From: Thermoplasmatales archaeon
GTDB lineage: Archaea; Thermoplasmatota; Thermoplasmata; Thermoplasmatales; Thermoplasmataceae
Direction of reading: 5' to 3'
Assembly: GCA_026127925.1 (NCBI GenBank)
Contig: JAJSLM010000001.1
Location: forward strand, 248,001-312,000
Length of the DNA: 64,000 nucleotides
In this document: positions 8,042 through 8,289 of the stretch, piece after piece
Numbering within the stretch: the stretch's first letter is position 1
Layout of the letters: every line of letters starts with the position of its first letter
The notes under the pieces: model-generated
Seen by the model: the letters and a program-made list of their open reading frames with translations, nothing else
What the model was told of the DNA's origin: nothing
Database searches by the model: none
Translations under genes and position numbers: made by a program

Positions 8042-8149
8042 TTGAAGAGAAGTTCAAGAGACTGGAAGAAACGCGGAAAGATGCGCTGGAAATGGCGAAA
8101 GAAAAGAATTAGAAGATTGAAGCGATCAAGAAGAGCGAACAAAGAATAG
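8042..8149 (+). CDS. rpl41e: ribosomal protein L41e
   Basis: A 35-codon ORF begins [17 protein letters not shown] after its start codon and continues as Arg/Lys-rich helix ([14 protein letters not shown]). This is the signature of L41e, the smallest and most basic large-subunit protein, a single helix. The start is TTG at 8042, fixed by a strong Shine-Dalgarno GAGGTG at 8031-8036 with a 5-nt spacer. The stop TAG (8147-8149) lies directly before the first base of tRNA-Trp, so the two must share a transcript or be separated by RNase P cleavage. It is far shorter than most gene finders accept. Confidence 0.93.
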
Positions 8150-8289
8150 GGGAGCATGGGGTAATCAGGCTATCCTACCGGGCTCCAGTCAGGTTATGAT
8201 TAACTATGGGTCACCTGATTAATGATGAGTGACTGGATCTATGAACCGGAAGAGACCCGTAGATCTGGGTTCGAATCCCAGTGCTCCCA
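8150..8289 (+). tRNA. tRNA-Trp (CCA) with a 66-nt intron
   Basis: Acceptor stem GGGAGCA (8150-8156) pairs with TGCTCCC (8282-8288), with A73 at 8289. The T arm is CTGGG-TTCGAAT-CCCAG (8265-8281). The anticodon loop begins CT then CCA (8185-8187), followed by G37. The intron lies at the canonical archaeal 37/38 site (8189-8254): a bulge-helix-bulge can be drawn with CTCC (8183-8186) facing GAAG (8249-8252), one C/A mismatch. After splicing, the anticodon stem CCGGG/CCCGT has a C27-U43 mismatch. CCA is not encoded. Confidence 0.93.
8189..8254 (+). ncRNA. box C/D 2'-O-methylation guide inside the tRNA-Trp intron
   Basis: The intron contains box C ATGATTA (8196-8202), D' CTGA (8215-8218), C' ATGATGA (8222-8228) and a degenerate D, ATGA (8241-8244), closed by GGTT/AACC (8192-8195 with 8244-8247). 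The D' guide pairs over nine positions with tRNA nt 37-45, and its fifth nucleotide upstream of D' faces C39. The D guide CTGGA (8233-8237) pairs with nt 33-37, and its fifth nucleotide faces C34. Positions 34 and 39 are those known to be methylated by the Haloferax tRNA-Trp intron guide. Confidence 0.82.

Follow-up and report, generated by a model that had tools for sequence, protein, structure and literature searches.

Introns of tRNA-Trp that guide the modification of their own tRNA have been known since 2001. The intronic guide of Haloferax tRNA-Trp is established as directing Cm34 and Um39, with at least 29 archaea represented (PMC2584109; PMC7994747), and the precursor has been stated to be the substrate for this class of guide (PMC2584109). 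In Haloferax the intron itself is dispensable (PMC4090602). A review table already contains the entry 'Um39 (or Cm39)' (PMC6313347), and in Pyrococcus furiosus C32, C34 and C39 have been predicted as targets, with C39 not among the methylations detected in the analysed tRNAs (PMC7668247). With regard to the guide boxes, position 6 of box C and position 1 of box D form the 4b:4n pair of the k-turn. Both archaea and humans show strong conservation of G:C at this pair, while the 3b:3n pair tends to be U:U (PMC5689011). No modification reports for any member of the Thermoplasmatota were found in the literature.

The window, meaning the whole 64,000-nucleotide stretch of DNA that was analysed, belongs to a genome of 1.73 Mb that is 98% complete (G000). 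A default ARAGORN scan misses its tRNA-Trp gene, which is recovered at 8150–8289 when introns are allowed, as tRNA-Trp(cca) interrupted by a 66-nt intron, and the spliced form folds as tRNA-Trp. The intron very probably represents a dual box C/D guide of the type already described for tRNA-Trp, acting on its own precursor and carrying a compensated k-turn. Its features are as follows.

8150–8188, + strand: 5′ exon of tRNA-Trp(CCA), with C34 (predicted Cm34) at 8185 and G37 at 8188 (ARAGORN, sequence)
8189–8254, + strand: 66-nt intron at position 37/38 (between G37 and A38) holding the putative box C/D guide (ARAGORN; kept in 156 parsed introns)
8192–8194, + strand: 5′ strand of k-turn stem I, GGU, partner of ACC at 8245–8247 (own-partner versus swapped-strand pairing)
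8196–8202, + strand: box C, AUGAUUA, with U at position 6 where the consensus has G (covariation with box D)
8203–8214, + strand: guide 1 (D′ guide), 12 nt, N+5 facing C39 (pairing with 37–45)
8215–8218, + strand: box D′, CUGA (sequence, parsed introns)
8222–8228, + strand: box C′, AUGAUGA (G at position 6 throughout the 156 parsed introns)
8229–8240, + strand: guide 2 (D guide), 12 nt, N+5 facing C34 (eight pairs with U33–G37 and intron nucleotides 1–3 of the precursor)
8241–8244, + strand: box D, AUGA, with A at position 1 where the consensus has C; partner of U6 of box C (covariation with box C)
8245–8247, + strand: 3′ strand of k-turn stem I, ACC (own-partner versus swapped-strand pairing)
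8249–8252, + strand: strand of the splice-site (bulge-helix-bulge, BHB) helix, GAAG, opposite C32–C35, with A facing C34 (sequence)
8255–8289, + strand: 3′ exon of tRNA-Trp, with C39 (predicted Cm39) at 8256 (ARAGORN)

The 5′ half of the intron reads UCAGGUU, box C, guide 1 ACUAUGGGUCAC, box D′ and UUA, and the 3′ half box C′, guide 2 GUGACUGGAUCU, box D and ACCGGAAGAG. Independently of this box parsing, Rfam gave a sub-threshold match to the C/D-box RNA sR3 at 8192–8246 (E 0.0034). The coordinates, intron length and four boxes given in the initial annotation, a model's reading of the bare sequence, proved exact. It should also be noted that the anticodon stem carries a C27·U43 mismatch (8178 and 8260) where close relatives have G·U or A-U, and that a 35-aa ORF at 8042–8149, resembling ribosomal protein L41e, ends with its TAG abutting the start of the tRNA gene; a similar L41e-like ORF lies approximately 350 bases upstream of tRNA-Trp in the close relative L002.

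As in the described class, C34 and nucleotide 39 sit at N+5 of the D and D′ guides, respectively, and intron nucleotides 1–3 join the guide 2 duplex. Positions −3 to −11 of guide 1 pair with G37–G45 through eight Watson-Crick pairs and one U·G, and the duplex (−15.9 kcal/mol) is the same for the precursor and the spliced tRNA, since the intron, too, ends in G. Guide 2, in contrast, makes five pairs with the mature tRNA (−7.7 kcal/mol) and eight contiguous Watson-Crick pairs with the precursor (−13.6 kcal/mol), where U33–G37 is extended by the first three intron nucleotides. Given the eight pairs against five and the covariation of intron nucleotide 2 with the guide, the unspliced precursor is the likely substrate for the predicted methylation of C34. 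This pairing bears out the earlier assignment of the two guides to C34 and C39 by the N+5 rule, together with the nine-position duplex of guide 1; the five-pair core described for C34 holds for the mature tRNA but understates the fit to the precursor. On this basis we infer Cm34 and Cm39 in the tRNA-Trp of the window. The initial annotation had also singled out C39, in place of the U of Haloferax, at the second of the same two positions. The two positions do match (PMC2584109), but neither C39 nor Cm39 is peculiar to this genome, since C39 is present in 156 of 156 parsed introns, was predicted as a target in P. furiosus (PMC7668247) and is covered by the review entry (PMC6313347).

Judged on the single sequence, the guides are only moderately unlikely matches: a nine-position run like that of guide 1, with G·U allowed, arises in 2% of shuffled 12-mers, and an eight-pair Watson-Crick run like that of guide 2 in 0.65%, rising to an unremarkable 17% when G·U pairs are allowed. 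Such statistics were too weak alone and were dropped as proof of the guides. It is conservation across relatives that makes the match certain. BLAST matched the tRNA-Trp gene in 80 of 101 relatives, and when a covariance model of the precursor was run on the class, 387 of 400 genomes matched, as did 280 of 284 for the phylum, some of these matches being other tRNAs. From the retrieved loci, 156 non-identical introns of the phylum fit the identical plan of boxes and guides. When the first 108 of these introns were compared with their own tRNAs, guide 1 formed 723 Watson-Crick pairs (maximum 689 in 2,000 reshufflings) and guide 2 formed 853 (maximum 819). Individual compensations were also seen: in five introns from two genera of family f1, tRNA nucleotide 42 changes from G to U with A in the guide; in family f31, nucleotide 41 changes from C to U with A in the guide; and intron nucleotide 2 is C with G in the guide in families f1, f27 and f28, most of the remaining families combining U with a guide A. 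A comparison of related introns had been proposed beforehand as a check, and almost all relatives do keep both the spacing and the complementarity, although exceptions exist.

These data also bear on an alternative that gives importance to the C34 guide alone and takes the C39 guide to be weaker, partly decaying and methylating inefficiently or never. Guide 2 is complementary to U33–G37 in every parsed intron, several introns have no GGG core in guide 1, and the C39 methylation predicted in P. furiosus went undetected (PMC7668247), all of which would suit this alternative. On the other side, guide 1 of the window forms its nine-position duplex in the correct register, the GGGU core is retained in nearly all parsed relatives, and the changes at tRNA positions 41 and 42 are matched by changes in the guide. 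A C34-only role is therefore considered unlikely.

A number of relatives depart from the common plan. The GGG core of guide 1 is gone and guide 2 kept in L185, L193, L230, L237, L262, L265, L275 and L180, and the introns of this type are Methanomethylophilaceae-like and Poseidoniales-like. In family f15 (L150–L157), guide 2 is kept and the GGGUC core of guide 1 mostly so; a hairpin lies between a D′ box CGGA and a C′ box AUGACGA, and the terminal boxes C and D are apparently lost. Two introns of family f14 (L148 and L149) carry a conserved GUUCC-containing guide in place of guide 1; the fit to C39 is gone, and the substitute may be aimed at another RNA. The tRNA-Trp intron of one genome of family f2 (G061; L070 and L146) is only 15 nt long with no boxes, and a pattern search of that genome (86% complete) found no trans guide replacing it. 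A second, diverged tRNA-Trp with an intron lies near the first in another genome (L061, G059:C10:116361-116492); its T stem and acceptor are disrupted and it is probably a decaying duplicate.

The guide 2 complementarity also shows in the computed folding of the precursor. In the four-base BHB helix, C32–C35 would take GGAG, and the window has GAAG with its A opposite C34. GAAG occurs in 13 families and GTGG, likewise mispaired at C34, in 14, with GGAG in a minority. The lowest-energy precursor fold contains the cis guide 2 hairpin and not the splice-site helix; enforcing the BHB gave −36.2 kcal/mol, compared with −44.5 kcal/mol for the best fold retaining the cloverleaf. As the best fold favours the hairpin, the precursor would need to switch between the two structures. 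It could be argued that the complementarity serves pre-tRNA structure only, as a cis hairpin UCCAGUCA:UGACUGGA presenting the splice sites with no guiding involved, and the minimum-free-energy fold of the precursor does include exactly this hairpin. However, by the energies given above the hairpin and the splice-site helix compete, and a purely structural role leaves unexplained the boxes, the constant 12-nt spacing, the occurrence of the N+5 register at two separate sites and guide 1 as a whole, which makes it very improbable beside a guide function.

The terminal boxes deviate from the letter consensus (RUGAUGA for box C and CUGA for box D) by one departure each, AUGAUUA and AUGA. The two departing nucleotides, U6 of box C and A1 of box D, belong to one and the same k-turn pair and complement one another. 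In the 156 introns this pair is U-A in 115, G-C in 14, C-G in 11 and A-U in 5, i.e., Watson-Crick in 145, the 11 mismatches being U·C (7), A·A (2), C·A (1) and G·A (1). An independent-contrast test on an intron tree was tried and dropped, the tree of these short sequences having too few supported branches; families were used as units because this support was too poor to count independent changes. When each state is counted once per family (46 entries from 34 families, the labels of some named loci being set by similarity), 36 of 46 are Watson-Crick, whereas 10,000 shuffles averaged 23.6 and never exceeded 34. With all U-A entries removed, 9 of 19 still pair against a mean of 4.6, a value reached in 227 of 10,000 shuffles.

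The internal motif provides a control that is clean on one side. Position 6 of box C′, which was unconstrained by the parser, is the invariant G listed above, whereas the D′ side is uninformative because the parser demanded C at its first position. The nucleotides of the sheared pairs are likewise kept, with G3A4 of box D in 156 of 156 introns and UGA of box C in 155 of 156 (the parser having demanded UG), and tandem sheared G·A pairs are possible in both motifs of the window (G3A4 of C/D and of C′/D′). Stem I strands form on average 3.9 pairs with their own partner and 2.0 when strands are swapped between families. With C′/D′ boxes of consensus type and k-turn pairing kept, the letter consensus is treated as typical rather than essential, and the comparison gives good support to terminal boxes that are compensated rather than failing. 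It lends no support to the concern in the initial annotation that degenerate boxes might weaken the terminal guide, and the same concern taken to its end, as a k-turn too degenerate to assemble and a dead C34 half, is scarcely credible: both departures do hit a strongly conserved G:C pair (PMC5689011) that is touched by Nop5 (PMC5389607), but they pair with each other and covary across the phylum with U-A as the commonest state, their changes are compensated, and the guide beside box D is conserved where a decaying motif would behave otherwise. The open literature, apart from the original 2001, 2003 and 2008 papers, yielded no description of this covariation, and no claim of priority is made for it.

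Besides the intron, a pattern search of the window genome detected one box C/D sRNA (G000:C1:59558-59606), the terminal boxes of which are of consensus type; the departure thus looks confined to the tRNA-Trp intron. This free sRNA has guides around CAGCCUU and GACGGGC, and similar sRNAs are conserved in G009, G012, G013, G017, G062, G064, G066 and G068. A separate sRNA was found in two Aciduliprofundum-like genomes (L367, G064:C1:1353115-1353163; L368, G068:C1:1400809-1400857) with the guide AAAGAGGGUCAG, the exact sequence that guide 1 has in tRNA-Trp introns from related genomes.

Genes for fibrillarin, L7Ae and a short Nop5 of 291 aa are found in the genome, together with a single splicing endonuclease gene. 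From these proteins and the features of the intron we infer a course of RNP assembly, two methylations and subsequent splicing. L7Ae would bind the terminal k-turn formed by boxes C and D, as well as the internal C′/D′ motif, in the unspliced precursor, and Nop5 and fibrillarin would then join the L7Ae-bound intron. Guide 2, placed on U33–G37 and the first three intron nucleotides, would direct 2′-O-methylation of C34, and guide 1, placed on A38–G45 and the G preceding A38, that of C39, with bulge-helix-bulge splicing coming after methylation. Boxes C and D would form a compensated k-turn in which U:A replaces the usual G:C at 4b:4n. Two Nop5 residues of Sulfolobus solfataricus, Q296 and R339, are reported to contact box D at its C and box C at its last GA (PMC5389607), and the Nop5 of this genome retains residues aligning with both. 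Since contact with the C of box D has been reported, the U:A pair may change the docking of Nop5.

In eukaryotes, boxes C and D are conserved while C′ and D′ drift. On balance, the Thermoplasmatota introns seem to reverse this rule, the terminal k-turn being selected for pairing at 4b:4n rather than for base identity, and box C′ being fixed. If true, a possible reason is that a terminal motif that is easier to open allows the RNP to make way for the splicing endonuclease. The family of introns amounts to a natural mutagenesis series in which one k-turn pair occurs as all four Watson-Crick types beside a consensus internal motif, and it offers ready constructs for asking whether L7Ae and Nop5 recognise base identity or pairing alone, and whether a weaker terminal motif eases the handover from methylation to splicing. 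The locus itself confirms that a well-known arrangement reaches through an undersampled archaeal phylum. The compensated terminal boxes and the longer C34 duplex are well-supported additions to the picture of this known kind of guide.

Compared with the described systems, the window intron shares with the guide of Haloferax volcanii the tRNA, the 37/38 intron position and both targets (PMC2584109; PMC7994747), as well as the inclusion of part of the intron in the guide duplex, for which reason methylation would be expected before splicing in both. It differs in length (66 nt against 103 nt) and in having C rather than U at nucleotide 39, and may differ further in the U:A of its terminal 4b:4n pair. 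With sR50, the tRNA-Trp intron guide of Pyrococcus, it shares a dual intronic guide and a predicted C39 target (PMC7994747; PMC7668247); C39 methylation was undetected in P. furiosus, and no C32 guide is evident in the window intron. The C′/D′ motif of yeast U18 (PMC5389607) also has an AUGA box with a preceding U, in D′ there and in D here, but its C′ box carries a one-base insertion and it directs two adjacent methylations, while the window intron has no insertion; by analogy, C35 might be a second methylation site. Finally, the sheared G·A pairs, and usually U:U at 3b:3n, are retained in common with box C/D k-turns of archaea (PMC5689011). The U:A at 4b:4n of the window, compensated across the phylum, contrasts with the G:C of these archaeal k-turns generally.
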